From the NCBI RefSeq assembly GCF_001625215.2, contig NC_030387.2:31705606-31769605 (forward strand): DNA of 64,000 bases, written 5' to 3'. The notes beneath the pieces were generated by a model. That model saw only the letters and a program-made list of their open reading frames with translations, did not search any database and was not told the origin of the DNA. The stretch is from Daucus carota subsp. sativus. Taxonomy: Eukaryota > Streptophyta > Magnoliopsida > Apiales > Apiaceae. Positions within the stretch are counted from its first letter, which is position 1; each line of letters starts with the position of its first letter. Made by a program: the position numbers and the translations under genes. Shown in pieces: positions 2,703-55,115 of this stretch.

Positions 2703-2789
2703 GTAGTTTTACATTTTCGGAATATTTTATGACTAATTTCGTAGAATACTGACTACCACCTTGATGTGCAGGCTTACAATTTTCTCAAG

Positions 2790-6901: not shown

Positions 6902-7009
6902 ATCGGATCAACTCTCCACTTTGCCATAAGGTTATTCAATATCATCTTTACAAATATCGGATCAACTCTCCACTTTGCCATAAGGTTATTCAATATCATC
7001 TTTACAAAT
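6902..7009. repeat. Perfect 54-bp tandem duplication
   Basis: The unit beginning ATCGGATCAACTCTCCACTT at 6902 is repeated at 6956 with period 54. A smaller direct repeat (CCAAACAGAGGTTGGAATT, about 6784-6835) lies just upstream. The perfect match suggests recent slippage or unequal exchange. Confidence 0.85.
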
Positions 7010-9917
7010 TTTTAATGTAAAAATTATTACTCAAGATTGATATGAGTAATACAATTGATTTTTTATTATTTTTTTATACACTTTGTTCATGATAATTTAT
7101 AATAAAACAGTGTTTATTTCTTAAAAAAATAAAATAAAAATAAAACAGTGTTTATACAATTTATATGAATAAATTTTGTGTTTATAATTATGAGTTGCCT
7201 TCAATTATAAAAAAAATTGTTATTTTCCTAACATATGTTTATGAGTAATTTTAATGGTTAGTATTTTTGATTATTTCGATATAAATTATTATTAATAAGA
7301 AGTTCGTATTTATGGTGAATGGCATTTTTTATATTTATGAAAAATTGAGTCTATATATTATAAATATATAAAAAAGGACATGTCCATTATAAATATGATT
7401 TTTTTTGTTAAATATTTTACTTTCCATGTATAAAAATTTACATTATAACTTGATGATAATATTAGTATTATGAAAGTAATATTTTATACAAATATTTTAT
7501 AAAAGTCATTCTAATAAATCATAAATTAGATAGCTCTTATAGTGTAATTGTTAATTATAGATATTATAATTATATATTATATATAATTGGTTAAAATTTG
7601 AATATTTTATGATATTGATATTTAATTGTATATAGTTGATGACAAACTCAATTATATATGGAGATTTTATTAATATAAAATAAAAAAATAAATATAATAA
7701 ATTCATATAATATAATTGTATATCAGTTTCACACTTATATCATCAAATATAAATAGTTCTGTTAGAATTTTTTTAAATGCATTTACTTCTTCTCACCCTT
7801 TAATTTTTTTTAATTTTTTTATATTGTTCGACATGTATGTTAAGGCATATATAAATCATAATTTCATAATTTATTTTCAACGTTTTATTTTATGTATAAA
7901 TTCAACATTAGACTTTTATTCAGAAAAAAAATTCAAATAATTTATCAAATTATATTTATGATAATATTAAGATGCGTGATTTCCAATTATCATTAAGATA
8001 TATTATAGTAGCTTAGAATGAAAATCACTCTGTTTTATTTTAGGGTTCCGAGGATGAACCGTAATAATAAATAAATCATCCAGCTAAATATATTTAATTA
8101 TATTTGAGGTCAAATCGAATAAATATTGTGGAAGAGGGAGTAACTAGAAATAAAAAGAAAAATACGACGACAAAATACTAAATATATGGACACGCTCTTG
8201 TTCTTATTCTCGGTGAATCAGAGGTCAATAAACAAAAAATTGGTCTTGTTCCTACCATCTTATTCTCGGCGAGCGAATCATCCCTTTCTCCTCTCTTCGA
8301 TTTTAAGCTGTAAGTTCTTACCCCATCTCTTCATTCCATTCCGTTTATGGACATGTAATCGTATTAGGGTTTATGATATAATTTCGGTATTCTTGATCTG
8401 GGCTAAATTGAGAACATGATCCGATCTAAATAGTCTTATATGTTTCTTTCTCGATTCTTGACTTGATTTGTAGCCATACCACACGGTGGTTTTTGTATTA
8501 AATGTTTTTATATATGTGAATATTTATGTGGTATCTCATGATTGTCTTTGAGTCTTTTTAGTGTAGTTTTGAATTGTTTAGCTGTTCTTGTTTTGTTATG
8601 CTTTAATATGTATGTTACCACTCTTCACATGGATAGGCTTCAAGTTGTCATGTTCTTCACAATTAGGGTTTGTAAATTAACAGGTCGTGTTCGTGTTAGC
8701 AATCGGGTCGATTTCGGGTCAAGTTAAAATCACTTAGTTGAATAAAACTGCAAATTGAAGTTAATAGAAATAAAATTCTAATTTCGGGTCATTTCGGGTC
8801 AATCGGGTGATTTTCGGGTTTTGTCCCAGTAAATCGGGTTGCGGGTTGGGTCGTGTTCGGGTCAGGTTTCGGGTTTTGTCTCAGTAACATGAAATGAAAG
8901 TGCAGACAAAATAAAAGCAGGAAGAAATGACAAAAATTTTATTTTCATTCTCATTGATAATCATAGACTAAAGAAGAAAATACATTATATAGGAAGTAAC
9001 ACTCCAGAGACTACATTATTGGCCAATTCAAAACATATAACCCAACACTATGCTTGACCCACATATAATATCTGGCCCAACAGTATTTTTAGCTCAAATC
9101 GTGACAAAAGTGTTGGTCTATGACAGTTATATGCAAATTTTACATGTTTTTGGCGTGAAATAAGTGTTTGGTACTCGAGGCAAGCTGAAGAGTCGGGGTA
9201 AATTACATGTGTTTAATTGCGTCTTTAACATGCGAAACTTGGGGATTTGGTGTGTATACACTAAAACATAAATCAGTGCTTGTGGTACTTGCTGTATATG
9301 TGTGCGTACTTGTGTAAATTTGTTTCTGGATAAAATGAATTCATTGAAATTTCATGTGATCATCCTATAAGTGCCACTGTGTCTATATCTGGCCAATATT
9401 TTTTTGCCATGCTTGATTATTTCAGTATGTTCAATTATCACTGAAACCGTCTTTTAGTTTATTTGAATATGTTAATTTTATTATTCCCAAGATTAGTTGT
9501 GCAATATTGCTTATGATGTACCTGTATTTATATGTTTAAGTAAATGGAAAAAATGTTGGCTGATAGGCCCCCCATAAGAACTCCCTACTGTATGTTCAAC
9601 ATATTGCAATATTCACCGTTGATCAAGTTTAAAAATATTTTTGTCTAAAGCAACAACTAATCGATGATATTGTTATTTAGATCGAAGTGATGTTGAATTC
9701 TTATAATCTGCTCATTTTGATTTGTATTTCAGAGGTCGGCAGGGTCGTATCTTAATAGATATCTCTTGATTTTGGTCGTATGAATTCTGGTTATTGATTT
9801 TTTTTACCCCCTTGTTTTGTCATTTCATAAAATAACTATATTGTTCGAGTTTTGCTATTTGATCAAGTTAATTATGCTGGTGAGTATCATTCTAACATGT
9901 TGAGTTGCATGATATAA

Positions 9918-10475: not shown

Positions 10476-10562
10476 TTAGTTTTACATTTTCGGAATATTT
10501 TATGACTAATTTTGTAAAATACTGACTACCACTTTGATGTGCAGGCTTACAATTTTCTCAAG

Positions 10563-11621
10563 ATGCCAGCTACAGCAGGCAGGGTTCGAATGCCCGCAAA
10601 CAACAGGGTACACAGTAGTGCTGCCCTGCAAACACACGGTATTTGGCAGAGTGCTATAGGGTATGACCCCTATGCACCAAATAAAGAAGATAACAAAAAG
10701 TCTTCTCAGCCTAAAGCTTCTGATGCTGCTGCTGAACCTGCGGGTGAAAATGCTTATGCAAGCTTCCAGGGTTTGCTTGCACTTGCCCGTGTAACTAGCA
10801 ATAATGTAGATGAGTCTCGTGGAGCATGTAAGAAGTGTGGACGTGTGGGTCATCTTACATTTCAGTGTAGAAATTTCTTGAGTATCAAGGATGAAAGTAA
10901 TGATAAAGACTCTGAGGCAATTCAGGCGGCAGTTATTTCTGGACTGGAGAAAATAAAAGGCAGCGGCAGAAAGTTATTTGGTAAAAGTGGGGTAGAAGAT
11001 TCCAATGAGGATTCTGACGATGAGAGCGAGAGTTCAGATTCTGACTATGATTCTGAAATAGAGAGGGCAATTGCTCAGAGCAAAAAGTTTGGGAAGAAGA
11101 TTGTTGATAAAGTGAAGTCTTCTAGAAAGAAAAATGATGATTCTGATGATGACGAATCTGATTATGAAAGGAGAAAGAATAAGGTTGGATCAAAGAGGAG
11201 CAGCAGTAAAAGAATTTACAGTGATTCTGATGAAGATGATAAGGATAATCGGAAGAGGAGAGAAAAGAGGAGGAGAGATGAATCGTCTGATGTCGATGAT
11301 GATAACCAACGACAACATAGAAAGAGTAAGAAGGAAAAGAGGAGGAGGAGAAGGCGAAGTCACACGTCTGATGAGGATGATGATAATCAACAACAACGTA
11401 GAAAGAGTAAGAAGGAAAAGTGGAGAAGGCGAAGTCGCAAGCATTCAGATGATTCAGATGGATCTGAGGAACACACTAGAATGTGTAAGCGGAAGAGCAG
11501 GAGAGAAAGATCGGTTTCTAGTCCTGACATTAGCAGCTCAGATGATTCTGATTTAGGAGGTAGAATCGTCAAAAAACAATCTGGGAAGAGGAGCAGGAAG
11601 CACAGCCACAAACGAGATTAG
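10563..11621 (+). CDS. CXIP4: CAX-interacting protein 4-like zinc-knuckle protein (copy 2)
   Basis: 352 residues, single coding exon, same start and same length as copy 1 (2790-3848) but with compensating in-frame indels. The zinc knuckle CKKCGRVGHLTFQC is unchanged, with all four ligands present. The N-terminal conserved region is identical by eye apart from the shorter Ala run. Most differences lie in the charged tail: repeated blocks of the type DDDNQRQRRKSKKEK are present twice in each copy but with different flanks, and here one reads QQQRRKSKKEKWRR. Preservation of the frame through a repeat-rich tail suggests selection, or that the duplication is recent. Family-based role: nuclear zinc-knuckle protein linked to CAX transporter regulation. 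Confidence 0.88.
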   Translation: MPATAGRVRMPANNRVHSSAALQTHGIWQSAIGYDPYAPNKEDNKKSSQPKASDAAAEPAGENAYASFQGLLALARVTSNNVDESRGACKKCGRVGHLTFQCRNFLSIKDESNDKDSEAIQAAVISGLEKIKGSGRKLFGKSGVEDSNEDSDDESESSDSDYDSEIERAIAQSKKFGKKIVDKVKSSRKKNDDSDDDESDYERRKNKVGSKRSSSKRIYSDSDEDDKDNRKRREKRRRDESSDVDDDNQRQHRKSKKEKRRRRRRSHTSDEDDDNQQQRRKSKKEKWRRRSRKHSDDSDGSEEHTRMCKRKSRRERSVSSPDISSSDDSDLGGRIVKKQSGKRSRKHSHKRD

Positions 11622-30413: not shown

Positions 30414-31409
30414 TGTTGTAGCCGATTTTGTATACTGTGAGGGGGAGGACGCGCCCTCCCCGGACATGGTCCGGGAGGTGCGGTCTCCTGTCCAGTAAGA
30501 AGAATATGAAGACAAAGAAGGGGAAGGACGTGTCCTCCCGTGAAGGGCGCGCCCTTTGGCTTAAAGAATGACAAAATTATGAAATAAGTATGAGAGAGGG
30601 AGGATGAGTGAGTCTCCGTGACGACCCTTCCGAGGGATATGAAGACCAGTTACCAAGCTCATTTGGTAGTTATCAGGCTCATCTGATAGTTCCCGGGCTC
30701 ATCCGGGCATGATCTACAATCCTCAATCCTGCTATCTGCCGAGTTAACCCTCGTGTGGGGGCTTGAGGTGATCATGGTTCTTGAAGGCCCTCCGGGGTAA
30801 TGTGAAGGCCGGTCATATGTCTAAATCCTGTATTCTGGTGAGTTAGCCCTCATTGGGGGATTGAGACGATCGTGTAAGTTGGCTCCTTGTCTACCTTGTC
30901 TGAAGATGAAGACCTCACCGGGAGGTGAGGACATGTCCCTGCACCTCGAGGGATTGGTCATGGCTTGCCCAGATACCTTCTCCATAAGAGTCGTGGTAGA
31001 TGTTATCTCTCGTAGTGGAGATATCGTTGAGTCCGTGATCTATTTGGATTAGGAGTCTGAGGTTGTCATACTCAAGACTAATTCTAACAGGAGTAGGACT
31101 CTCCAGGATGGGCCTTCGGCCTATCTCCGACCTTATCGCCAAGAGGCCTAGTCCTGATCAAACTAGGACTCCTGGTTCCATAGAACTACGTATGGCTTGA
31201 TCCCCTATATAAAGGGGTACGTAGGCACATCAGGGGGATATATCGAGAGTTGTGAGAACGAGAGCAGAAATATATTCCCTTGATCTCAGCCACCCTCAAA
31301 CACTTAAAACCACCGCCCACAGCGGATTTCTGTCATACAATCACCGTGAAACACCTTATTCCGGCAACGAACCTCACGTTTGTTGATTCACCAAATTCCT
31401 CTATCAACA
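30414..31409 (+). repeat. 5' LTR (996 bp)
   Basis: Starts TGTTGTAGCC and ends CTCTATCAACA. It contains GGACGCGCCC (30447-30456), GGACGTGTCC (30526-30535) and the palindrome AAGGGCGCGCCCTT (30543-30556) in its U3 part. Repeated CTCAT words occur near 30658-30705. A TATA box lies near the right third. It is identical as read to the 3' LTR, offset by 11,911 bases. Confidence 0.95.
31205..31213 (+). promoter_or_regulatory. TATA box of the 5' LTR
   Basis: CTATATAAA in a GC-balanced context about 200 bp before the LTR end. Transcription of the genomic RNA would be expected to start about 25-35 bp downstream, near 31240. The 3' LTR has the same box at 43116-43124. Confidence 0.75.
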
Positions 31410-31412
31410 AAT

Positions 31413-31430
31413 TGGCGCTAGAAGGAGGGG
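31413..31430 (+). promoter_or_regulatory. Primer-binding site, tRNA-Asn-like
   Basis: TGGCGCTAGAAGGAGGGG starts 4 bases after the 5' LTR. Its 5' TGG pairs with a CCA tRNA end. The rest matches what I recall of the 3' end of plant cytosolic tRNA-Asn. The tRNA assignment is from memory. Confidence 0.75.
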
Positions 31431-31457
31431 ACTAGGTGAAATCTCGAAGAGGAAGAG

Positions 31458-34400
31458 ATGGCCAATCACGATGATGACCCGTACGAAGGAGATTATTATG
31501 TTGAAGATGAACAAGTAGAACCATACTCACCGGAGCACATACAGGACCCCCGCACTTTGCCGAACAACCCACCCCCGGTTGTAGTCAGTAACACGGAGCT
31601 CCTTAGTGCCCTCCACCGGATGGAACAAAGTCAAGCGAGGTATGATGCAAGGTTGGATACCATGGAGTCTGTACTCGAAGAACTCGTCCCCAGACACTCG
31701 CGCCATTCCAAAAGCCATGGCAGGAGAGGACGTAGACGTTTCAGACGACCAACCCCCCGGATGTTGGAATACGGAGATGCGCCCCCCGACGCTAACCTCC
31801 CACCGGGAGCCATAATAAGCCAAGGAGTCTACGACGCAAATGGCGCGCCCCTGGACGTGACCACGCCTCCCGCACAAACAGGAGAGACGGGACAAGAGAC
31901 GGTCAACCAAAACGCAGACGCCCGACCCCTGGCTGAAAGGCTAGGTATCACCCCAAACAGTTTGGCTGTGATTGTGCGAATGGCGGAGCAGGAGCAGAGG
32001 AGACCCCCCCAGGGAGGCGGCGCGCGCCTACGTCCTCAAGGAGACGACGCGCCCCCTGAGGCAAGACGTGAGACAGGAACGGGCAGGATATACCGGGGAG
32101 TACGGGGAAGAGGAAGAGGCCTTGTACCAAACTCAAGAGGAAGGCGCCGAGGGGGACCCGTGATAGAGTACCTCCCTTCGCAAAGCGACTCAAGCCAGCA
32201 CACCCCGCACCCAAGAACCACGGGAAGGACGCGCCCCCTTGGCAATCAAGGAGACACGCCTCCCCAAGGCCCACCTACTGCTAATCAACAAACCACGACA
32301 CCTCCAATCATAACCACTGTCAATCAGCAAGCCACATCAACTCTACCCATTCCCACTCCGCAGCAAACTATTCCTGTGTCCACCACACCTACTCCTCCAA
32401 CACAAACGCTCACCCAAATCGTCCAACCAACCGCTACCCAGACTCAAGCCAACAACGTGCTTCAGACCACGGTGGCCAACACAAACCTGACTGCTACCCC
32501 TCCGGTAAACACTCAGACTATTCCAGGAGTCGGAACGATCAACCCCGAAGACCTGAAGAAGTTACTAGCCCTTCTGCAAGCCAGCGCGGCCACAACGGCG
32601 CCACAGATCTCGTCACCATTTACCGCAGCAGTCCGTGAAGCCCAGCTACCAACCGGTTTCAGGAACTTGAATGCAGATCTCCGCTATCACGGGAACGCCG
32701 ACCCTCGCGAATTCCTGATCAGATTTAACATTGAAATGGACTTATATCAGATCCCCGACCTGGTCAGGTGTAGGTTCCTAGCAGCAACCCTGAGGGACAG
32801 TGCTCAACAATGGTTTCAAAAGTTGGGAGGAGGAGTCATCTCCTCTTGGGAAGGAATGCAGCAGATGTTCATGACGCAATTCCAAGCGGCAACCAAATAC
32901 GCTCCACCCGTTACCACGCTTGCCAATGTCAAGCAGCGCGACAATGAAACTTTGACCGCATATTTCAAGAGGTTTAACCAGGATTCCATGGGAGTGAAAG
33001 GAGCCTCAGACGAAACCCTGAAGAACTTCCTTATCGCTGGACTCAAGGTTGGTACCGACTTCTGGAAGCACCTCCAAGGGAAGGACCCGGCCTCTCTGTC
33101 CGAGCTATATTCCGCAGCCGAATCCTTCAAAAAGGTAGAGCAGTCGTTGGCCGAGAATCAAAAGGAGATCGCCAAATCTAAATACAAAAGAAAAGATCGC
33201 ACTCCCAGTCCAGAACCAAGAGGACGCGCCCGCTCTCCGGGTAGGGTAAATATGACTTCAAGCAAAAGGACTTGGAGTCCTCCTCCGAGACAGTCAGGAG
33301 TATATACCCCGCTAACAGCCTCAGCTGAACACGTCTACGCGATGACCAAGGATAAGGTGCCGTTCCAGAAACCCCAACCTATTCCCCAACATATAGCCAA
33401 AGACAAAAAGAAGTATTGTGACTTCCACGAATCGGCAGGACATAGCACCTCCGAGTGTCGACATCTGAAAGAGGAAATCGAATATTTACTCAAAGAAGGA
33501 TACCTAACGGAATGGGTAAAAAAGTACAGGACAGACCACCCTCCGGAAAGACGCGGCCTTGGTACTTCGCAGAATGACAGAACTGATGAAAAGCAGAACG
33601 ATACCCAGTTTGTAAGAGAAGGCAGCATCAGGAGCATATTTGGGGGACCCTACATAGGGGGAGGCAGTCGAAAGGCAATGGAGAGATATGCTAAGGAAGC
33701 GAAGGACTACCCTCTTACCAACGTGAACCATCTGTCGGCCAGAGCCCCACGAGTATTTAAGGAAGAAACTATGGACATCACTTTTACGGAGGACGATGCG
33801 AGGTGGGTACACCATCCCCATAACGACGCTTTGGTGGTCGCCATGCGTGTCGCCGCCCTGAACATTCACCGAGTGTTTGTCGACAATGGAAGTTCGGTCA
33901 ACATCCTCTACTACGACACTTACAAGAAAATGGGATTACCAGACAAGGACATGACTGTGGAAAACCTCTACATATATGGCTTCGGGGGAGAGGCCATCAA
34001 AGCCAAAGGAACCATACGCTTGCCAGTCACCTTAGGGGAGGCTCCACGAGCAGCAACTCAAATTGCCGAGTTTGTGATCATCGACCATCCCTCGGCGCAT
34101 AATGCACTTATGGGACGCCCCCTCTTGAAAGATATGAGGATAATCACCTCCATTTACCATCTTACCTTGAAGTTCCCCACTCCTGGAGGAGTCGGCTGTG
34201 TGAAGGGGTCCCAGTATGAATCTCGCGATTGCTACGGCCGGTCGCTTAAGAATTTTCGAGATAGGAGGGGAGTGCCGCCCCACGAGGAACTACACTCAGT
34301 CCACGTACTCTACCTTGTTCAATATCCAGAAAGCGACAATGAAGACACGCCCAGCATCCCACTACTCGGAGGACGCGTCCCTCGCAAGGGCGAGCCCACT

Positions 34401-37400
34401 CTCGTCGATAACTCGACATCTGAAGAGTGTGAAGAACTGGTTATCGAAGTAGAAGAGGCACCTCTGAAAAAAGTCAGGAGGATGGATCCGCAGGAGGTTG
34501 TCATGGAATTAGAGGAGCCTTCTCCTCCCAAAAAAGTTTCTAAGGGCGCGCCCTCAGAACCAAGGGAAACCCCGCACCAGTTCGACTTCGACTTAGACCC
34601 AAGATTACCCATGCAAGTGCAAAACACAGGGCCGGCTGAGGATACGATCGATGTGCAAGTTACACCGGGGAGTGATGGCAAGGTCCTGAAGATAGGATCC
34701 AAACTAGGTCCGGAGATAAGGAGCAAGCTGATAGAATTCCTTACAAATAGCCTCGACGTATTTGCTTGGAGCCACGAAGATATGGTAGGGATAGATCCGG
34801 CAGTTATGTGCCATCACCTGAATGTCGACCCCTCTAAAAAAGGTGCTAGACAAAAGAGAAGACCCATCAGCGGAGAAAGAGCCGAGGCCCTGCAGGAGGA
34901 GGTCGATCGCCTCTTGAAAGCAGGATTGGTAAAGGAATCGTTCTACCCGAAATGGCTAGCAAATCCCGTACTTGTTAAGAAACCCAACGGGAAGTGGCGC
35001 ACATGCATAGATTTCACGGATCTCAACAAGGCGTGTCCTAAAGATAGTTTCCCGCTCCCTCGCATTGACCAACTGGTAGATTCAACGGCAGGACACGCCC
35101 TCCTCAGCTTTATGGATGCCTACTCGGGATACAATCAGATTCCCATGTATGAGCCTGACCAGGAGCACACTTCCTTCATCACGGACAGGGGTCTATATTG
35201 CTACATTGGTATGCCATTTGGGCTTATTAACGCAGGGGCGACTTATCAGCGATTGGTGAACATGATGTTCAAGGATCAGATTGGGAAAACAATGGAAGTA
35301 TACGTGGACGACATGCTGGTTAAATCCAAGAAGGACACTGACCACGTTGCCCACTTGTCAGAGATGTTCGAAATCTTAAGGAAATACAGAATGAAACTCA
35401 ACCCGCAGAAGTGTGTGTTCGGAGTAGAGTCGGGAAAGTTCCTCGGTTTTATGGTTAACCACAGAGGCATAGAGGCCAACCCAGCAAAGATCAAGGCGTT
35501 ACTAGACATGAAGTCCCCAGCCAACATTAAGCAAGTCCAGAGTCTGACAGGAAGGATAGCCGCCTTAAATAGGTTCGTGTCAAAATCCTCGGAGAAATGC
35601 AAGGAGTTTTTCAAGGCCATCAAAGGCGCATCCAAAGATTTCGAATGGACGGAGGAGTGCGAGGACGCCTTCATAAAAATTAAGAAACATTTGGGCGAGC
35701 CACCCCTCTTAGCCAAACCTCAGGAAGGAGAGACGCTTGTCATTTACTTAGCCGTTTCAGACTACTCCATAAGTGCTGTATTGGTGAAAGAAGATGAGGA
35801 GGGGCAGTCCCCAATCTACTACGTAAGCAAGCGGTTGCTAGATGCAGAGACTCGCTACACAAGTATGGAGAAGCTGGTATATGCCTTGGTACATGCGACT
35901 AGGAAACTGAGACCATACTTCCAGGCCCATAAAGTGGAGGTTAGGACGGCGTACCCCCTCCGACAAATTATGCATAAACCAGAGGTAACCGGTAGAATGA
36001 TGAAGTGGGCAGTCGAGCTGGGGCAGTTTGACCTAGATTACAAACCAAGAGCCGCCATCAAAGGACAGGCCCTAGCAGATTTTATCTTGGAATTCCCGGA
36101 AGATGGAAAGGAGTCTGGTCTCCTGATCAAATATGATCCCAGCCTACCACCGCAGCAGGAATGCCCAAAGGAAAGCATACCCGAACTCTGGTGGATATTG
36201 CATACTGATGGAGCAGTAAATAATGAAGGAGCGGGAGCCGGAATAGTGCTCGTAAGTCCGGAAGGACATAGACTCTTGAACGCAACTCACTTCACCTTCC
36301 AGCTCTCTAACAATGATGCGGAGTATGAAGCCCTGATCGGGGGGCTAAGGCTTGCCCTCGAAATGAAGGTGAAAAAGCTTGTTATAAAGGTCGACTCCAT
36401 GCTGGTGGTCGAGCATATCAAAGGAGGATACCAAGCAAAGGGACCTAAAACGGCGATATATCTCAGATGTGTTCAAGGATTACTAGACAAGTTTGAGGAG
36501 GTGCAAGTAAATAGGGTACCTAGAGAGTTCAACGGGGATGCCGACGCTCTCGCAAAGTTAGCATCTCAGAAAGATCCGGCCCTATTGGGAGTTATCCGCC
36601 TAGAGATACAGGAGATACCTAGCATCCCCGAGCTTGAGGTAACAGAAATACAAGACAAGAGTGGAAATTTAACATGGATGACCCCAATCTGGAAATACAT
36701 CAAGGAGGGTACGCTGCCCGAAGATAAAGCTGAAGCCCGAAAGTTAAAATACAAGGCTGCCAGATATGTGGAATATGATGGGAAGTTGTATAAAAGAGGT
36801 TTCAATCAGCCCCTTCTCAAATGCATAGACGGGGAGGAGTGCACTTACGTGATGAGGGAGATCCACGAAGGCATTTGCGGGAACCACTCGGGAGGTAACT
36901 CATTAGCCATGAAGATTTTGAGGCAGGGGTACTACTGGCCAACCTTGAGGAGTGATGCTTTCAATTTCGCCAGAGCATGTGACAAATGCCAACGATTCGC
37001 CAACTTCACCAACAGCCCAGCCACGTCCCTCACCACCATGACTAGTCCTTGGCCCTTCGCTATGTGGGGGATAGACTTGATCGGAGAACTCCCAAAAGCC
37101 AAGGGAGGAGTGAAGTATGCAGTGGTTGCGGTCGACTACTTCACCAAATGGGCAGAGGCCATACCCTTGGCCACCATCACAGCCAAAAAAATAACAGATT
37201 TTGTTTTTAACTCTATTGTTTGCAGGTTTGGAGTCCCTTACAAGCTGATCTCGGATAATGGAAAGCAGTTCGACAGCAAAGAGCTAAGAGGCTTATGTGA
37301 AAATCTCGGAATCAAGAAAGATTTTGCGGCAGTGTACCATCCCCAAAGCAACGGGCAGACGGAGGCGGTCAACAAAATCATCAAGCATACTCTAAAGACA

Positions 37401-37910
37401 AAGTTGGAAGATAGCAAAGGGAATTGGCCGGAAGAACTCCCCATGGTCCTATGGTCTTACAACACAACCCCTAGGACTACGACCGGGGAGTCGCCCTTCG
37501 TCCTATCTTATGGGTGCGAGGCCATGGTCCCAATTGAGATTGGAGCAGGATCGTTCAGGAGAGACTACTTCGACCAACTGGATAATGATGCAAGTCAGAG
37601 AGTATACCTGGATATGATTGAAGAAATCAGAGCTACATCGCAACTACGCCTGGCCGCGTATCAACGCAGGACGGCTAGGTACTACAACAACAAAGTAAAG
37701 GCTCACCCCTTCCAAGTTGGGGACCTTGTCCTTAGAAAAGTTGTACTCAACAACAAAAATCCCCAACATGGAGTCTTTGGAGCCAACTGGGAAGGCCCTT
37801 ACAAAGTCAAGGTCATATTGTGGAAGGGCACTTACAGATTAGAAGACCTAGATGGAAAGCCCGTTCCAAGACCTTGGAACGCGGAGCATCTAAAGAAGTA
37901 TTATCAGTAG
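31458..37910 (+). CDS. Gag-pol polyprotein of the Tat-type retrotransposon
   Basis: 2150 residues in one frame. A long Pro/Thr/Gln-rich N-terminal region (to about 380) precedes the gag capsid-like domain (about 395-520, with WFQKL and YFKRFNQD). A C-X2-H-X4-H-X4-C cluster (CDFHESAGHSTSEC) follows at about 654-667. The protease active site is VDNGSS near 808. Reverse transcriptase spans about 1150-1330, with catalytic YVDD at 1282. The first RNase H has Ala in place of the usual first catalytic Asp (IYLAVSDYSISAVL), so it is probably inactive. A second RNase H with HTDGAVNNEGAGAGIVL (about 1577-1705) probably replaces it. Integrase has an HHCC region (H-EGICGN-H...CDKC), a DDE core (WGID near 1870, SDNG, GQTE near 1968) and a terminal GPY/F-type module (WEGPYKV). 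No frameshift separates gag and pol. The start ATG follows a purine-rich leader 49 bp after the LTR. Confidence 0.95.
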   Translation: MANHDDDPYEGDYYVEDEQVEPYSPEHIQDPRTLPNNPPPVVVSNTELLSALHRMEQSQARYDARLDTMESVLEELVPRHSRHSKSHGRRGRRRFRRPTPRMLEYGDAPPDANLPPGAIISQGVYDANGAPLDVTTPPAQTGETGQETVNQNADARPLAERLGITPNSLAVIVRMAEQEQRRPPQGGGARLRPQGDDAPPEARRETGTGRIYRGVRGRGRGLVPNSRGRRRGGPVIEYLPSQSDSSQHTPHPRTTGRTRPLGNQGDTPPQGPPTANQQTTTPPIITTVNQQATSTLPIPTPQQTIPVSTTPTPPTQTLTQIVQPTATQTQANNVLQTTVANTNLTATPPVNTQTIPGVGTINPEDLKKLLALLQASAATTAPQISSPFTAAVREAQLPTGFRNLNADLRYHGNADPREFLIRFNIEMDLYQIPDLVRCRFLAATLRDSAQQWFQKLGGGVISSWEGMQQMFMTQFQAATKYAPPVTTLANVKQRDNETLTAYFKRFNQDSMGVKGASDETLKNFLIAGLKVGTDFWKHLQGKDPASLSELYSAAESFKKVEQSLAENQKEIAKSKYKRKDRTPSPEPRGRARSPGRVNMTSSKRTWSPPPRQSGVYTPLTASAEHVYAMTKDKVPFQKPQPIPQHIAKDKKKYCDFHESAGHSTSECRHLKEEIEYLLKEGYLTEWVKKYRTDHPPERRGLGTSQNDRTDEKQNDTQFVREGSIRSIFGGPYIGGGSRKAMERYAKEAKDYPLTNVNHLSARAPRVFKEETMDITFTEDDARWVHHPHNDALVVAMRVAALNIHRVFVDNGSSVNILYYDTYKKMGLPDKDMTVENLYIYGFGGEAIKAKGTIRLPVTLGEAPRAATQIAEFVIIDHPSAHNALMGRPLLKDMRIITSIYHLTLKFPTPGGVGCVKGSQYESRDCYGRSLKNFRDRRGVPPHEELHSVHVLYLVQYPESDNEDTPSIPLLGGRVPRKGEPTLVDNSTSEECEELVIEVEEAPLKKVRRMDPQEVVMELEEPSPPKKVSKGAPSEPRETPHQFDFDLDPRLPMQVQNTGPAEDTIDVQVTPGSDGKVLKIGSKLGPEIRSKLIEFLTNSLDVFAWSHEDMVGIDPAVMCHHLNVDPSKKGARQKRRPISGERAEALQEEVDRLLKAGLVKESFYPKWLANPVLVKKPNGKWRTCIDFTDLNKACPKDSFPLPRIDQLVDSTAGHALLSFMDAYSGYNQIPMYEPDQEHTSFITDRGLYCYIGMPFGLINAGATYQRLVNMMFKDQIGKTMEVYVDDMLVKSKKDTDHVAHLSEMFEILRKYRMKLNPQKCVFGVESGKFLGFMVNHRGIEANPAKIKALLDMKSPANIKQVQSLTGRIAALNRFVSKSSEKCKEFFKAIKGASKDFEWTEECEDAFIKIKKHLGEPPLLAKPQEGETLVIYLAVSDYSISAVLVKEDEEGQSPIYYVSKRLLDAETRYTSMEKLVYALVHATRKLRPYFQAHKVEVRTAYPLRQIMHKPEVTGRMMKWAVELGQFDLDYKPRAAIKGQALADFILEFPEDGKESGLLIKYDPSLPPQQECPKESIPELWWILHTDGAVNNEGAGAGIVLVSPEGHRLLNATHFTFQLSNNDAEYEALIGGLRLALEMKVKKLVIKVDSMLVVEHIKGGYQAKGPKTAIYLRCVQGLLDKFEEVQVNRVPREFNGDADALAKLASQKDPALLGVIRLEIQEIPSIPELEVTEIQDKSGNLTWMTPIWKYIKEGTLPEDKAEARKLKYKAARYVEYDGKLYKRGFNQPLLKCIDGEECTYVMREIHEGICGNHSGGNSLAMKILRQGYYWPTLRSDAFNFARACDKCQRFANFTNSPATSLTTMTSPWPFAMWGIDLIGELPKAKGGVKYAVVAVDYFTKWAEAIPLATITAKKITDFVFNSIVCRFGVPYKLISDNGKQFDSKELRGLCENLGIKKDFAAVYHPQSNGQTEAVNKIIKHTLKTKLEDSKGNWPEELPMVLWSYNTTPRTTTGESPFVLSYGCEAMVPIEIGAGSFRRDYFDQLDNDASQRVYLDMIEEIRATSQLRLAAYQRRTARYYNNKVKAHPFQVGDLVLRKVVLNNKNPQHGVFGANWEGPYKVKVILWKGTYRLEDLDGKPVPRPWNAEHLKKYYQ

Positions 37911-39026
37911 CCACAGGCTACATAGACTAGCAATGACTAAACATCACACCTAGTCTAGGGGAGTAGTGTACATATGCTCTTCTTTAGACTAAGGCCCTTG
38001 CTAGTCCTTTTATGTCCCCTTGGAGTTAACAGCTCCTTGGGACGGGTGCGGTTTCGTACTCGAGCGCATTAGTTATCAGATTTACTATGGGCCAGAGGCC
38101 ACGTTGTAATTCAGTTGTCCTTAATAAAGGCTTAAAGCCACTCTTTCCCCGCAAAGATGAGTGTGCAATGTGTTCAATATATACATATATAAAAGTCCAA
38201 GCAGGGTGTTTTAACAATTGTACGAAAGATGGCAGCCGCGCCCTCCCATCACATAAACAAGGCAAAATGCATCAATAATTCATTAAGGACATTGACTTAC
38301 AAACATACAAAAATAGTGGAGAGGGATAAGACGCGCCCTCGGAAAACGAGGAAGGACGCGCCCGCCCCCATTGCTACGTAAGTACTTACACATTATTAAC
38401 AATACGAATTAACAAAAACGCAAACTCGGGGAGTGAGGTGATTCTCCCTGAATTTGAGGACGCGCCCTCCTCGTTTGGGTACCTAACTCATCCTCTTTCT
38501 TCCTCGTGATTTACCCATTATAAGATGGTCTATTTTCTAAGGACAAGGAGGAGGACACGCCCCCAAGAACGTACGAAGGCCGCGCCCCTCCTCACGAACT
38601 CTCTGCGTAAAATGGCAATGGCGAAAGCTTTCAAATACTATGAGGGACACTGGGGAGTGGCGCAAGCATAATCCTTATATGATACAAAGAGTAAATTGGG
38701 ATTCCTGGTCAAGGGGACGCGCCCTCTGACAGGACGTAGTTCATTCTCCGTTAAAACCTAGCTTTCGAGATCAAGGTGTAAATTGATTTCTAAGGATGGC
38801 AGGGCGCGCCCACAAAAGCGTGACAATAACAAACGATCGCACATAACAGATAAAATAGAAACATCAATTCAAATACAAGGCTACATGCTTGGATTAAACT
38901 GTTAAGGCGCGCCAGCCGACAAGATTGTGTAAATTACAACTTGCAGGGTTTTACAGAGGACCCGCTCCTCAAAATACTCAAAACATTCAATGTCTGATAC
39001 AATGTCAGATTAAATAAAAATATGAT
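37911..39026 (+). other. Untranslated spacer between pol and the antisense gene
   Basis: No coding sense on either strand. It carries eight copies or close variants of the GC-rich word (near 38236, 38331, 38354, 38458, 38579, 38715, 38802 and 38906). It also has several purine runs of the form GGGGAGTR (near 37958, 38430 and 38652) similar to the sequence just before the 3' LTR. The 3' end of the antisense transcript presumably lies here. Confidence 0.6.
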
Positions 39027-41604
39027 TCATTGGACGGACGCGTCCTCCCCTTGATGGTCACCTTCTTGGCGCGCCGTCCCCTCAGCTGCCTCCTTGGCCA
39101 AGGTGGCCTCCAGTTCGGCTCGTTTGGCCGCCATCAGTTCAGGGTGCTCTTCAGGAAACTTGGCCATAAAATCGGCCGCGGTCTTCCCAAACTTGGGCAA
39201 CCAATCATAATCAGGCTCCCCAGAGAGGAACGTAGCGACATAGCTACACACCCCCTCGACGAAGGACGCGCCCTCCACTTTGTCCTTTTCCTCCACCAGA
39301 CTTTGATTGGTGGATTCAAGGGTGGAGTTCGCCTTCTTGAGATCGGTGATTTCCTTCTCAAGGCGCGCCTTCTCAGTTGCTAGGCTCTCCTCAGCTGTTT
39401 TCTTGGAGTTTTCGGCTGCCTGTAGCGCCTTCTCCTGCTTCTTCGCATCCTTCTTTAGCTGGGAGATTTCCTTCTCCAGATTCGAAAGGCGCGTCTCCTG
39501 AGCCACCTTAGCATTTTCTCGGTCCATATTGTGGACCAACATCTCACAGCTGGCCTTAAGGATCCAGGCATCCTTGTCAGCCTCGGACTTGGCGCGCCAT
39601 GCCCTTAATTCTTCGTCCGAAGCAATGGACGCGCCTATCTTGCCTAGAGCCCTGGTTGAGAGGCCGGTGGAGGACTTTTTCAACACCCTTTGCCTTTTTG
39701 AGACTCTAGAGTCATCCAGCGCGGGATTGACCTTGTCGCCCTGCTTTTGAGTGTCGAGGGCAGGCGCGCCCCGCTTTGATCCTGAAGGTTGAGAGGACGC
39801 GCCCTCTCCAGTGTTGAGCTTCGTCCGGTTGAAGAAGGCTGGAACGTTTGTCATGTCTGCATTATAGTGATAAAAATGAGTTAGTCGCATATAATTGATA
39901 AAATGATAAGCAAGTTAAAGCAAGTGTAAGGAAAGGGTAAGATATGCGTTAGAGGAAAATATGTAATAATAGGACGCGTCCTCAAAATTATAGACTCCCA
40001 TATGGGGAGGACGCGCCCTGAAATACCTTGGTCAGATAAATGATCAGGGCTTGGCTCCTTCGATTTTTCTTTAGAAAACCTATGTTTTCTATCTGTAAGA
40101 GGCCTACCATCCCTAAACACTTTGAACCCAACTTTGGTCCCTATGTTGGGAGAAAGAAACCCGGCCCTGACCAAGTTTGGGGTGGTAACAAGAAGGGTCA
40201 TGTTTTTCCTCTCGTGAGGAAGATTCAAGATATGCTGTACCCTCTCCAAGGCCTCATTCTCTAAGGAGGGCATCCCTCGCTCAACTGAATAAAATAAAAG
40301 TTGGGTCAGTAAAAGAGAAGGTGACGATTGGAAGGACGCGTCCTTTAAGAAATTTTCTAACCTGGAGACACATTGAATTGTGTCCTAATCCTCTTAACGT
40401 CATAAACGTAGAAGAAAGGCTCTTTCCACTTTTTGATGTGAGAGGCGCGCCCCTCGCTAAAGCCTTTGTTGTTATGTTGTTTTCTGACCACAAGAAAGAA
40501 ATAACCCATGGAACTCCTTGTTAGACGAAAAAAATAACTCAACTCATCCATGGAGGGCGCGCCGTATCCCTCATCTTTGTAAAGGATAAATAATCCGGCC
40601 GCCAGTTTATAAGAGTTTGGGGATAACTGGATAGGCGCGACATCGAACCATTCGCAAATGGCCTCAAAGTACTCATGGAGAGGCGCGCCCACCCCTAAAC
40701 TGACATGTCGGGGAGTCAGGACAAGACGGGGAGTCCTGTAGTTTCCTATATCGAAACGATGAGCCCTCATCTCCTCGAGAGGCACTACGGCCGTCCCTTT
40801 TTGCTCATAATAGGCCATTGTCCATTCCAATTCCTCCCAAGAAAGAGTTGAGGATTGGTCTACGCAGCTTAGCTTTCCTTTGTTTTTCTTTATCTCTTCA
40901 ACCATTTTAGAAGAAAGTTCCATATCCTCATAATCAGACCAATTCACGTCCTCCTCCCATTCCTCTATTTTTGGATGAGAATATGGTTCAGGGGAAGGTG
41001 GAGGAGATGGGGGGATCCTGGGTGCTCTGCTTTGGGACGCGCCCTGGGAGGACTCCTCGTCATTTGTGTCCTCACTGGCTTGGTGAGAGGACGCGTCTTC
41101 CTCCCCCTTGTCTGAAAGCTCGTAGTCTAAATCATCCTTGTCGCTAGACGAAGAAGGAGAGGTGCCACGCTCCGAGGATGAAATGATTTGATAATATTTT
41201 CCCTTCCCCTTACGGGTAGGGGCAGACGCGCCCTCAGGTTCCTCTAGCCAGTTCTCGAACGAAGAGTCGTAGTCAGAAGGGCGACCACGGGTGGTTTGTG
41301 AGCTGGTGACTTCGTGTGTAGGAGCATTGGGGGTGATGGCATGAGGGGTTGAAGAGTGGGAAGACTCCATATCTCGTATAAGACTACAAGTGATTCTTTC
41401 TTTGTCCTCCTCAGAAAGGATGTAGGATGGGCGAGGTGGTGATGGAGGAAACACCTCTGGCGGAGAAATGGAGATGCCTCGTCTTTCTAGAAAATTTCTG
41501 AATGGATGGAAGGGTGGAGACGCGCCCTCGCCTGCCAGCTGAAAGAAAAGAAGAAAGGAATCAGGGCGCGCCCTCTTGGTAATAAGCTTGAGAGGATGGA
41601 CCAA
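39027..41604 (-). CDS. Antisense three-exon gene of the retrotransposon
   Basis: Read on the minus strand: exon 41604-40362, exon 40284-40027, exon 39856-39027. Donors are CCAG/GTTAGA and CAAG/GTATTT; acceptors are TTTATTTTATTCAG and ACTATAATGCAG. Lengths 1243, 258 and 830 join in phase to 776 codons plus stop. The first exon encodes a Ser/Glu/Asp-rich region. It is followed by a domain with PLHEYFEAICEWFDVAPIQL, then PNSYKLAAGLFILY and MGYFFLVVRKQ, which resembles the 'putative gypsy type transposon' family of plants. The last exon is a Lys/Glu/Ala-rich coiled coil (SNLEKEISQLKKDAKKQEKAL region) with an acidic tail. Antisense ORFs at this place are known in Retand/Grande-type elements; their function is unknown. 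The start is uncertain: a leader intron ending TTTCTTTCAG near 41543 would move it to the Met of RDMESSHSS. Confidence 0.8.
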
Positions 41605-42127
41605 GGAGGGGTGTAAGAAAGAAGAAGGGTTTGTGATAAGAGGAAGGACGCGTTGTGTAATCAGGACGCGCCCTCCAATTAGATGGAAGTATTCTTAAGA
41701 AGGGAAGCCACAGGGGAATGTTCAGTTTAAGGGACATTAGCCTAAACTACAGGAGGCGCGTCCAAAAAGGGAGGACGCGCCTTGAGCCTAGAGATGCAAA
41801 TTCACTTTTTACAAACACTTTTATATAAAACTAAAGCGGATCAAACGGATCAAAGACAAGGAGATACAAATATATATACATATGCACATTTGAAGAACAC
41901 GAAGAACAGAAGGGTAACTGAAAAGACACACACTCAGATCTAACGAATTACTCGATGAAACTTGAAGAGAATGGGTGGAAAATGTACCTTTGAAGACGGT
42001 GAAGAGAATGAGTGCTTAAAATCTGCAAATGGAGGCCGGAAAGTGCGGTATTGTGCTCGGAAAGCTTGCGTCGCCGGAGAAAGGAATGGCTGTTATGCGA
42101 AATGAAGAAGATGAGTGTGTGGAGGGG

Positions 42128-42136
42128 TATTTATAG
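42128..42136 (-). promoter_or_regulatory. TATA box for the antisense gene
   Basis: On the minus strand the sequence reads CTATAAATA, followed by a host-like leader and a donor-like AAAG/GTACAT near 41987. It lies outside the LTR, about 190 bp inside its left edge, so the antisense gene appears to have its own promoter. Two copies of the GC-rich word lie just upstream of it (42201 and 42219). Confidence 0.65.
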
Positions 42137-42310
42137 GGAAGCAAGGGACAGCTGTCAGTTCGCTTTGGGTTGGACCACAGGAGGAAGATAAGTTAGGGGA
42201 GGACGCGCCTCTTGGAAAGGACGCGTCATGTCGATAGTGGGATCAACATCTGAAGAATTAGCTGGTGGTTATGATAAGGAGATTCCCCTAACATTTTCAA
42301 TAATAGGATA

Positions 42311-42324
42311 ATCTGGGGAGTACT
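42311..42324 (+). promoter_or_regulatory. Putative polypurine tract
   Basis: ATCTGGGGAGTACT directly precedes the 3' LTR. The purine core is short (GGGGAG), so the assignment rests mainly on position. Confidence 0.45.
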
Positions 42325-43320
42325 TGTTGTAGCCGATTTTGTATACTGTGAGGGGGAGGACGCGCCCTCCCCGGACATGGTCCGGGAGGTGCGGTCTCCT
42401 GTCCAGTAAGAAGAATATGAAGACAAAGAAGGGGAAGGACGTGTCCTCCCGTGAAGGGCGCGCCCTTTGGCTTAAAGAATGACAAAATTATGAAATAAGT
42501 ATGAGAGAGGGAGGATGAGTGAGTCTCCGTGACGACCCTTCCGAGGGATATGAAGACCAGTTACCAAGCTCATTTGGTAGTTATCAGGCTCATCTGATAG
42601 TTCCCGGGCTCATCCGGGCATGATCTACAATCCTCAATCCTGCTATCTGCCGAGTTAACCCTCGTGTGGGGGCTTGAGGTGATCATGGTTCTTGAAGGCC
42701 CTCCGGGGTAATGTGAAGGCCGGTCATATGTCTAAATCCTGTATTCTGGTGAGTTAGCCCTCATTGGGGGATTGAGACGATCGTGTAAGTTGGCTCCTTG
42801 TCTACCTTGTCTGAAGATGAAGACCTCACCGGGAGGTGAGGACATGTCCCTGCACCTCGAGGGATTGGTCATGGCTTGCCCAGATACCTTCTCCATAAGA
42901 GTCGTGGTAGATGTTATCTCTCGTAGTGGAGATATCGTTGAGTCCGTGATCTATTTGGATTAGGAGTCTGAGGTTGTCATACTCAAGACTAATTCTAACA
43001 GGAGTAGGACTCTCCAGGATGGGCCTTCGGCCTATCTCCGACCTTATCGCCAAGAGGCCTAGTCCTGATCAAACTAGGACTCCTGGTTCCATAGAACTAC
43101 GTATGGCTTGATCCCCTATATAAAGGGGTACGTAGGCACATCAGGGGGATATATCGAGAGTTGTGAGAACGAGAGCAGAAATATATTCCCTTGATCTCAG
43201 CCACCCTCAAACACTTAAAACCACCGCCCACAGCGGATTTCTGTCATACAATCACCGTGAAACACCTTATTCCGGCAACGAACCTCACGTTTGTTGATTC
43301 ACCAAATTCCTCTATCAACA
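42325..43320 (+). repeat. 3' LTR (996 bp)
   Basis: Same length as the 5' LTR, and I found no difference on reading through both. TATA box at 43116-43124. Followed directly by the target duplication CTAAA (43321-43325). Confidence 0.95.
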
Positions 43321-43325
43321 CTAAA

Positions 43326-53225: not shown

Positions 53226-55115
53226 ATGGGTCGATCACCATGCTGTGACAAGCTTGGACTAAAGAAAGGGCCATGGACACCGGAGGAAGATCAGAAACTA
53301 CTAGCTTACATTGAAGAACATGGCCATGGTAGCTGGAGAGCCTTGCCTAGCAAAGCAGGTAATTCTTAAATATCTACAACTTTTCGCCGACTGAAGAAAA
53401 TAGGTTTATCTGTAAGTATGTTAATGTAGTGGTATACTGGTATATTAACTTGATTATGTAAATACATATAATCTTCGTTCAGGGCTTCAGAGATGTGGGA
53501 AGAGTTGCAGACTGAGATGGACAAATTATCTTAGACCTGATATTAAGAGAGGAAAATTCAGTTTGCAGGAAGAACAAACTATTATTCAACTCCATGCTCT
53601 CTTAGGGAACAGGTAACAGTTAAATCTGTTTACCTATGATCATATATGAATGAGTGTATATTCCACATATCATATTCGTGTTAGTAAATTAGAACGACTT
53701 CTATGCTCTTGATCTATGAGGCACCAAATATGAATTAATACTGCATTGTTATACCTTTTATTTTTTCTTAAGTTGTCATTCTTGGTACTTATTTATGGTT
53801 CACGTATTTCTCTTATATATACCTTTGTTTAGATGATGTATACAATTTCGCTGAAATGTTAAAAATAATACAAGTACATCTAAATGTTCAGTGTTTCAGG
53901 TGTTCATCTAGTTCAACAGTCACATTACAGAGCTTAATCTAGTACATGAGGAAGATATGAAATGGGCACACTTTAACTTTGAGAAGTAATAATTTCTGAA
54001 TTGCTGCAGCATTGCTAGTTTGCACAGTTCAGTTGTGTATAATATCGAGTATTTAAGACGGCCACTCTTGAATATTCCTGTAAAATGACAGAAACTTGGT
54101 GGTGTATATTATTTTTTGGGAATAGAATACTATATTACACTTGCTGAGCTTTGGATGATTTATGATAACTTCTAGGAGTTTTTGTTTTATTATTGTCCTT
54201 GATTTGAGCCCCCATGTCCTATAAAATTTGTCCCAATGTGATTGTCTTTTTCCCTTGTGATCGAACAGGTGGTCTGCTATAGCAACTCACTTGGCGAATC
54301 GAACTGATAATGAAATCAAGAACTACTGGAATACTCATCTTAAAAAAAGGCTAACTAAAATGGGGATTGATCCGGTCACACACAAGCCTATAAATGATTC
54401 AATCTTGTCTAGCAATAAAGGCACCTCTAAGAACACTGCTAATCTTAGCCACATAACTCAATGGGAGAGTGCCCGCCTCGAGGCCGAGGCAAGATTAGTC
54501 AGACAATCAAGACTACGTTCTTCATCTGAACTCAAGTCACAGGAATTTCCTCTCTCGCCTTTGATTCCCGTCAGCAAGCTGGCAATGCCACCTATGCCAT
54601 CACTGCCAACCCTTGACAAACTAAAAACACTAAATGGTATTTGGAGTAAGCCTGTCTCTGCAGCCGGCAGTAGCTGTGGCAGTGAAGTAGAGTCCCCAAA
54701 GTCCATTGTAAATTATTCTGGCACCGGAATGGGGGAGAGCTCGACCTCGTTTGTGGAGCTAATGAGGAACTCCTCAGGCTCCTGTGAAGATGGAATCATG
54801 AAAGATGGCACGGAAGAAGAGTGGGGCGGACTAAGAAGTCTCATTAATCCCATGGATACATGGTCAAGTGAGTCCCTTAGATTAGGCTATGATAATGTGC
54901 ATGTTAGCAGTGAGAATTTTGGGGACAAGTTTACGGATCTTTTGACGAATAATTATAACTCTGGTGACTGGAGTTACTTTGAGGGCAACGGAGAATCAGA
55001 TAACGGTGGTGATGAGACTAACAAGAACTACTGGACTAGTGTTCTAGACATGGTGGTCACGTCGCCTTCACATAATATGGTGAATTCTTGTGCATCAGAT
55101 TCACCAGTGTTATAA
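53226..55115 (+). CDS. R2R3-MYB transcription factor, MIXTA-like (subgroup 9)
   Basis: Three exons: 53226-53358, 53483-53612 and 54269-55115, with GT-AG introns of 124 and 656 bp at the standard R2R3-MYB positions. They join to 369 residues. R2 (about 14-61) has Trp17, Trp37 and Trp57; R3 (about 67-112) has Phe70, Trp89 and Trp108. The start [17 protein letters not shown] and the box [19 protein letters not shown] (about 152-170) are diagnostic for subgroup 9, the MIXTA/MYB16/MYB106 group. That group controls conical epidermal cells, trichomes and cuticle formation. The R3 segment reads [11 protein letters not shown] where most relatives have a Pro-Lys or Ser-Lys before RTDNEIK. The C-terminus is Ser/Asn/Gly-rich with acidic patches, as expected for an activation region. 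Role is inferred from family. Confidence 0.95.

Follow-up and report, generated by a model that had tools for sequence, protein, structure and literature searches.

The carrot genome (Daucus carota subsp. sativus) contains a retrotransposon that raises the question of why one short GC-rich word should recur dozens of times along a single element. The window analysed here is a 64,000-nucleotide stretch of contig NC_030387.2 (positions 31,705,606 to 31,769,605, forward strand). The element, at 30414-43320, is a recent Ty3 long terminal repeat (LTR) retrotransposon of the Retand/Tat type that carries an antisense gene for a TRP28 (Transposase_28) protein between pol and its 3' LTR. The word forms an enriched array in this element, is selected as nucleotide sequence while its sites turn over, is nearly restricted to Retand-like elements in the regions sampled, and changes with the clade of the TRP28 protein. 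The interpretation favoured here, with a probability of roughly 0.55, is that the array is read as DNA by the TRP28 protein that the element itself encodes, which would bind its sites and counteract silencing much as the VANC proteins of Arabidopsis transposons do.

Occurrence and form of the word

The element contains 21 exact matches to the pattern GGRCGCGYCC and 43 when one mismatch is allowed, as against means of 0.03 (maximum 1) and 0.87 (maximum 4) in 100 dinucleotide shuffles of the element, and the remaining 51 kb of the window contains no copy with up to one mismatch. The original prediction, made from the sequence of the window, had described about 45 copies without a close match elsewhere in the 64 kb; both statements stand, except that three of the 43 are second copies, in the 3' LTR, of those in the 5' LTR, and shuffling does not reproduce the count. 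All 29 of the coordinates listed there carry GRCGCGYC within 3 bases. The consensus given there was correct as to a GC-rich word with a CGCG core, but the conserved form, refined by sister copies, is the palindrome RGRCGCGYCY, which occurs 34 times in the element and nowhere else in the window. The 4.4-kb stretch between pol and the 3' LTR holds 26 of these (0.03 expected), gag-pol four (0.06 expected) and the LTR two (0.00 expected). Five control palindromes were counted in 22 sequences; four were absent throughout and RGRGCGCYCY was found once in each of five sequences. The interval at 38.2-42.3 kb holds 31 copies of GRCGCGYC, which amounts to about one per 130 bp and not per 120 bp as had been supposed.

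The letters G, CGCG and C of xGxCGCGxCx are kept at 97.5-99%, and the variable positions are mostly A or G in the left half and C or T in the right half. Because the invariant letters are palindromic and this purine/pyrimidine variation appears on both sides, the shape of the word suggests DNA, and it is probable that the word functions at that level. A is preferred directly before the word and T directly after it, and 510 half-sites of elements like that of the window yield the half-site consensus (A)GGRCG. Beyond the palindrome the flanks are unrelated, in agreement with the earlier description of the copies as dispersed.

Alternatively, the word could be an RNA-level signal that acts in packaging, in dimerisation through the palindrome or as small hairpins, a possibility that had been raised from the start. 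The strand bias seen in the window element, where GGACGCGCCC occurs 12 times on the plus strand and 0 times on the minus strand, would fit such a role; however, the bias weakens to 45:15 over 192 sites in eight elements including that of the window, and other elements show mixed orientation. With the eight elements pooled, Watson-Crick pairs within the palindrome exceed those of shuffles at two of three positions (104 versus 90.0, 11/1000 shuffles; 132 versus 113.7, 0/1000 shuffles). This part of the RNA proposal holds for the pool, which may owe its excess to mixed families, but not for four elements taken singly: the excess is absent within the window element, L021 and L025 (handles of this form designate individual loci) and appears at one of three positions in L023. 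A.C mismatches are also common (45 of 192 sites). For two 22-mers designed after the site at 30447 the RNA folding energies are -15.4 and -17.1 kcal/mol, whereas two 18-mers of other sites fold weakly (-5.0 and -4.3). Packaging needed in cis would likewise explain the words found in non-autonomous copies, yet on the whole an RNA signal is improbable.

Selection on the word and turnover of its sites

The word is kept by selection as nucleotide sequence, even within genes, and it is very probably a functional site. The 1.5 kb before the 3' LTR were aligned between the window element and eight sister copies at 69-88% identity, picked by LTR similarity and independently of the word; a ninth copy, L004, with 6 words of its own, was excluded for lack of homology in the stretch that precedes the 3' LTR (47.5%). 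The CGCG core letters agree in 315 of 320 cells, compared with 8157 of 10777 for non-word letters and 423 of 587 for other CpG letters. CpGs are kept in 157 of 160 cells in words versus 166 of 296 outside them (3 gaps included), and in the portion outside the TRP28 open reading frame (ORF) the cores agree in 128/128 cells and other letters in 3282/4576. The sister copies, to which the original prediction had pointed as a check, thus keep the word.

A second alignment covers 38.15-40.85 kb in four more diverged copies (66-70% identity), in which cores agree in 217/270 cells versus 6231/9233 for non-word letters, and CpGs in 102/140 versus 132/360 with gaps included. At four-fold degenerate third positions of the antisense ORFs, 137 of 140 cells agree in word cores versus 995 of 1734 elsewhere. 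Alignment cells are not independent, and sites are more nearly so; with each site in these four copies taken as one observation, conservation is complete at 24 of 25 four-fold sites in cores versus 54 of 307 elsewhere (Fisher 7e-16). Cores in noncoding DNA agree in 269/333 cells versus 4539/7034; for the DNA that separates the two large ORFs the figures are 64/72 and 1086/1585.

These results bear directly on the idea that the word encodes a tripeptide, Gly/Asp-Ala-Ser/Pro, which recurs in the antisense proteins, and that its conservation as DNA is a by-product. Although the two large antisense ORFs have 11 of their 14 words in one frame, in which the letters are readable as G/D-A-S/P, a protein-repeat origin is contradicted by the agreement at four-fold sites. 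Words with at most one mismatch also occupy all three frames of gag-pol, words are present in the LTRs and in noncoding DNA, and near the 3' LTR the cores are fully conserved outside the ORF. Such an origin is very improbable.

The individual sites, in turn, are not fixed. From 39.0 kb onward words are present in all four diverged copies with the exception of 39972 (2/4), while at 38354, 38458, 38553, 38578 and 38715 an aligned word is found in at most one of the four. The copies hold 19, 21, 17 and 20 words per 2.7 kb, of which 11-13 stand at the window's places; the 4-8 words per copy that stand off these places include 2 or 3 at weaker near-words of the window and about 2-6 at none. A stable number combined with shifting places is a pattern typical of clustered protein-binding sites. 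A neutral leftover, in which a GC-rich word was scattered by old tandem repeats or by template switching and has no function, would find a plausible origin in the tandem GC-rich arrays of other TRP28 families (described below). The flanks are unrelated, however, the sites turn over at similar number, and the best-kept letters are CpGs, which would be expected to decay fastest in silenced elements, so that this explanation is scarcely credible. Spread by template switching, as had been suggested originally, is contradicted by the unrelated flanks and by the same aligned places that words hold between copies 69-88% identical.

Occurrence in the genome and in non-autonomous relatives

Within the window the word is confined to one retrotransposon, as was first noted, but in the genome related families carry it as well. 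A scan of 441 Mb on 11 contigs found GGACGCGCCC at 957 places versus 43 for the reversed pattern, and RGRCGCGYCY 5998 times versus 422. Of 24 word-holding regions sampled, all on contig C1 (as are all 100 of the GGACGCGCCC places listed; L026 and L048 adjoin), 23 resemble Retand elements in their LTR, TRP28, coiled-coil or pol sequence. This assignment is weaker for L033 and L034, and for L022 it derives chiefly from an LTR match of 83% to L024. L032 is Retand-like solely through homology with L021, L023, L031 and L036, and L043 is the one region with a distant pol match alone.

Four of the regions (L021, L025, L028 and L029, with 17, 19, 11 and 12 words) have terminal repeat pairs of 98.7-100% identity, and none of the window's four proteins has a match in them; on these grounds they are taken as non-autonomous and recently moved. 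Seven regions (L025, L026, L028, L029, L031, L037 and L038) begin to match the window's LTR only near position 187, and words lie at most 260 bp upstream of that start; in L029 this word stretch falls inside the element's own terminal repeat. In the terminal repeat of L022, which is non-autonomous, the variant GGGCGCGGCC alternates with GGACGCGGCC in regular 57- and 36-bp steps.

The retention of words by non-autonomous relatives is also consistent with sites for a host DNA-binding protein (an activator, insulator or similar) exploited by one Retand clade, in the way that gypsy of Drosophila uses Su(Hw) sites, and so is a word that is palindromic, selected and located near the LTR 5' end and around the antisense gene. 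Indeed, the CGG-CCG palindromes of Sireviruses are discussed as possible host-factor sites in PMC2829016 (published papers are cited throughout for the parts of their text that were consulted). With 23 of 24 sampled regions Retand-like, however, few host targets are evident, and inside one host the word changes with the TRP28 clade. A host protein is therefore an unlikely reader, although one to be kept in view.

Association of the word with TRP28 clades

A tree of 15 TRP28 regions separates 7 word-bearing from 8 wordless proteins with a support of 1.0, in a biased sample, the 7 having been found via the word and the 8 taken from the top PF04195 matches. A second sample consisted of nine loci picked by TRP28 protein similarity alone among 150 scored matches. 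The loci at 62% TRP28 identity have 13 and 13 words and those at 54% have 11 and 12, while RGRCGCGYCY is absent from all five loci at 38-42% (L061-L065). These five carry a different dispersed word, GGCGAGGA/TCCTCGCC, on both strands. GGCGAGGA occurs 8-25 times per 4.1 kb (0.11-0.18 expected), and conservation in its columns exceeds that of the remaining columns in six of eight comparisons, which include one pair viewed from both sides (for example, 169/176 versus 2924/3724). It is preceded by AG, resembling the window's AGGGCG half-site, with no further likeness. A reading of GGCGAGGA as a direct repeat of the GGRCG half-site was not borne out by a count of half-site geometry.

The base just outside the word also differs between two word-bearing TRP28 groups, with A:T ratios of 202:32 and 16:35 (p 1e-14). 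In L022, related to L024 by its LTR, T occupies this base in half of the half-sites. The word thus follows the TRP28 clade, although the tree in effect records a single change of word and a single change of flank. A comparison with other GC-rich elements, for which the original prediction had called, was made with TRP28-bearing ones, and 13 such loci of other clades contain no RGRCGCGYCY. Five of eight canonical TRP28 loci possess other GC-rich words, arranged in tandem arrays between the antisense gene and the 3' LTR; L051 and L054 form one family and L053, L055 and L056 another. The arrays of one family have GGGCGCTC with GTCGAC and those of the other CGCCAAGG, and in the CGCCAAGG family L053 and L055 additionally have the palindrome GGAGACATGTCTCC.

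A proposed function for the array

Protein-binding sites, among the meanings first proposed for the word, agree well with its palindromic, selected, DNA-type form, but the CAMTA factors named as candidates have no support in the present data beyond the CGCG itself. A protein of the element itself is preferred, given that the word tracks the TRP28 clade and that the sampled regions are, with one exception, Retand-like. The sites RGRCGCGYCY, with their A..T flanks, would constitute a cis-acting array that occupies, in one Retand clade, the LTR and the stretch from pol to the 3' LTR. Their most likely reader would be the antisense-encoded TRP28 of the element, probably acting as a dimer, which by binding many sites may tag the DNA of its element and either activate it or protect it against silencing. 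Non-autonomous relatives that retain the sites could use the same protein in trans.

TRP28 is put forward as the reader because the region richest in words contains its gene, because its clades match the words, and because DNA binding has been predicted for it in PMC11963269, where its function is reported as unknown; the nuclear location of an antisense-encoded protein of maize Grande (PMC7264820) points the same way. According to PMC11963269, 97% of the recent Retand clusters in flowering plants encode TRP28 in antisense, and it was seen only in these plants. The coiled-coil product or the integrase could be the reader instead. A precedent exists in the VANC proteins, which bind a short dense word of their own VANDAL family and remove silencing (PMC5735166, PMC10398659).

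Several points weigh against a TRP28-read array. The match between word and clade amounts to one word change and one flank change in one genome, and loci within a clade are relatives rather than independent trials. Word-core conservation at 38.15-40.85 kb exceeds that of the rest just moderately. GGCGAGGA was discovered and counted in the same sequences, two of the eight comparisons in its clade do not exhibit better conservation of word columns, and three of the eight canonical TRP28 loci (L049, L050 and L052) have no obvious word in the 4.4 kb read. A single-sequence AlphaFold model of the window TRP28 domain was unusable (mean pLDDT 33). Unlike VANC motifs, the words here are dispersed and often lie in coding DNA under synonymous-site constraint, and it is possible that a host factor has been exploited by one clade.

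A broader and more tentative suggestion, which could well prove wrong, is that TRP28 proteins in general are sequence-specific DNA binders, each clade reading its own word (RGRCGCGYCY or GGCGAGGA), repeated dozens of times along its element, against silencing, and that they represent an independent VANC-like self-recognition located in coding DNA. For a plant retrotransposon gene that is widespread and of unknown role, the word offers a specific target open to testing. If the proposed function is true, LTR retrotransposons would join the small number of elements in which sequence-based resistance to host silencing is known. The word is also a DNA-level code laid over coding sequence in an element and visible as synonymous-site conservation.

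Structure of the element and other features of the window

The element (Table 1) is assigned to the Retand/Tat type on the basis of its paired TG..CA LTRs with a 5-bp target-site duplication, its domain order, the antisense TRP28 ORF and its sizes. By Pfam the order is gag, reverse transcriptase (RT), RNase H and integrase, with RVT_3 as a second RNase H-like domain in gag-pol. Such a second domain is linked to Tat-type elements. The LTR (996 bp), the internal part (10915 bp) and the pol-to-3'LTR region (4414 bp) all fall inside the Retand ranges of PMC11963269 (315-1194, 7380-12869 and 2933-6566 bp, respectively).

The window TRP28 ORF matches PF04195 at E 0.003 and 18.2 bits, under the Pfam cut-off of 26.2, and is homologous to the proteins of L024 and L035, both of which are over it (27.1 and 28.4 bits). 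Between 40360 and 40850 its divergence from four copies is 0.07-0.12, 0.02-0.04 and 0.46-0.57 at codon positions 1, 2 and 3. Because position 2 is far less diverged than position 3, the protein is, as judged from these substitutions, under strong purifying selection. The three antisense ORFs overlap and all lie between pol and the 3' LTR (39027-41694). The antisense region is divided over these three frames in the window, and in L027 TRP28 and the middle part form one ORF; the split may be due to introns in the antisense transcript or to damage of the frame.

Elsewhere in the window, two 367-amino acid (aa) zinc-knuckle (zf-CCHC_3) ORFs of the same layout, at 2745-3848 and 10518-11621, stand 7.8 kb apart and are probably two copies of a gag-like gene. 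An ORF at 54261-55115 with the end of a Myb DNA-binding domain is likely to be a host gene exon. Window positions 7001-8000 (GC 0.16) and 1-1000 (GC 0.22) are very A+T-rich, and a tRNA scan of the window returned no match.

Table 1. Coordinates of the element, its genes and its word sites, in positions of the window. "Copies" refers to the four diverged copies.
Feature	Position	Strand	Location or remark
Target-site duplication CTAAA	30409-30413 and 43321-43325		5 bp
5' LTR	30414..31409	+	996 bp, TG..CA; TATATAAA at 31206
gag-pol	31440..37910	+	single ORF, 2156 aa; gag, RT, RNase H, RVT_3, integrase
Coiled-coil-like antisense ORF	39027..39914	-	Pfam matches under cut-offs
Middle-part antisense ORF	39881..40384	-	same gene region; conserved with TRP28 relatives
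TRP28 (Transposase_28, PF04195) antisense ORF	40357..41694	-	best candidate reader of the word
3' LTR	42325..43320	+	996 bp, 100% identity with 5' LTR
Word GGACGCGCCC	30447..30456	+	5' LTR
Word GGGCGCGCCC	30545..30554	none	5' LTR
Word	32227..32236	+	gag-pol
Word	33222..33231	+	gag-pol
Word GGACGCGTCC	34371..34380	none	gag-pol
Word GGGCGCGCCC	34544..34553	none	gag-pol
Word	38329..38338	+	kept in 3/4 copies
Word	38354..38363	+	aligned word in 1/4 copies
Word	38458..38467	+	aligned word in 0/4 copies
Word	38715..38724	+	aligned word in 1/4 copies
Word	38802..38811	none	kept in 3/4 copies
Word	39036..39045	none	4/4 copies
Word	39264..39273	+	4/4 copies
Word variant RGRCGCGYCY	39361..39370	none	
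Word variant RGRCGCGYCY	39487..39496	-	
Word	39627..39636	+	4/4 copies
Word	39762..39771	none	4/4 copies
Word	39795..39804	+	4/4 copies
Word	39972..39981	none	2/4 copies
Word	40009..40018	+	4/4 copies
Word	40334..40343	none	4/4 copies
Word	40443..40452	none	TRP28 ORF; 4/4 copies
Word	40681..40690	none	TRP28 ORF; 4/4 copies
Word	41035..41044	+	TRP28 ORF
Word	41089..41098	none	TRP28 ORF
Word	41224..41233	+	TRP28 ORF
Word	41518..41527	+	TRP28 ORF
Word	41564..41573	none	TRP28 ORF
Word	41664..41673	+	TRP28 ORF
Word	41754..41763	-	noncoding, upstream of antisense ORF
Word	41773..41782	+	noncoding, upstream of antisense ORF
Word	42201..42210	+	noncoding, before 3' LTR
Word	42358..42367	+	3' LTR
Word	42456..42465	none	3' LTR

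Comparison with known systems

The insulator of the Drosophila gypsy element is a compact cluster of sites for the host protein Su(Hw). It resembles the array described here as a cluster of sites for one DNA-binding protein in a Ty3-type element, but its protein is that of the host and its sites form one compact cluster. The CGCG-box of CAMTA factors shares its CGCG core with the word, and this is the sole likeness.

The motif boxes of Sireviruses (PMC2829016) are likewise many palindromic, CpG-rich copies in plant LTR retrotransposons, located in LTRs and near an extra gene, and their function is unknown. Sireviruses, however, are Ty1/copia elements whose boxes have a CGG-CCG core and are placed in the LTRs and before env, whereas the present element has the Ty3 order and a CGCG core; that paper, as consulted, neither links the boxes to a protein of the element nor tests synonymous sites. 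The Retand lineage (PMC11963269, Vicient 2025) agrees with the window element in gag-pol, the long pol-to-3'LTR region, antisense TRP28 and sizes, but the repeats reported between pol and the 3' LTR are family-specific and tandem, in contrast to the dispersed, selected word found here. The main text of that paper has no match for CGCG and, as far as consulted, describes no dispersed selected word, nor was one reported for Retand elements among the matches listed by a literature search, subscription papers being mostly outside it.

The VANC/VANDAL system of Arabidopsis Mutator-like transposons shares with the present one a short word that is dense in its own family and rare elsewhere, and related families there also differ in word while their proteins have diverged. 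VANDALs are DNA transposons, however, and VANC words are mainly noncoding, tandem and in one orientation, whereas the word here is palindromic and CpG-rich, in a Ty3 LTR retrotransposon whose TRP28 is a putative binder. A scan of the element's proteins against Pfam profiles, in which no VANC sequence was compared, gave Transposase_28 and coiled-coil-like matches only. The closest systems among the matches listed are the palindromic boxes of Sireviruses, the tandem arrays of Retand elements and the VANC motifs.

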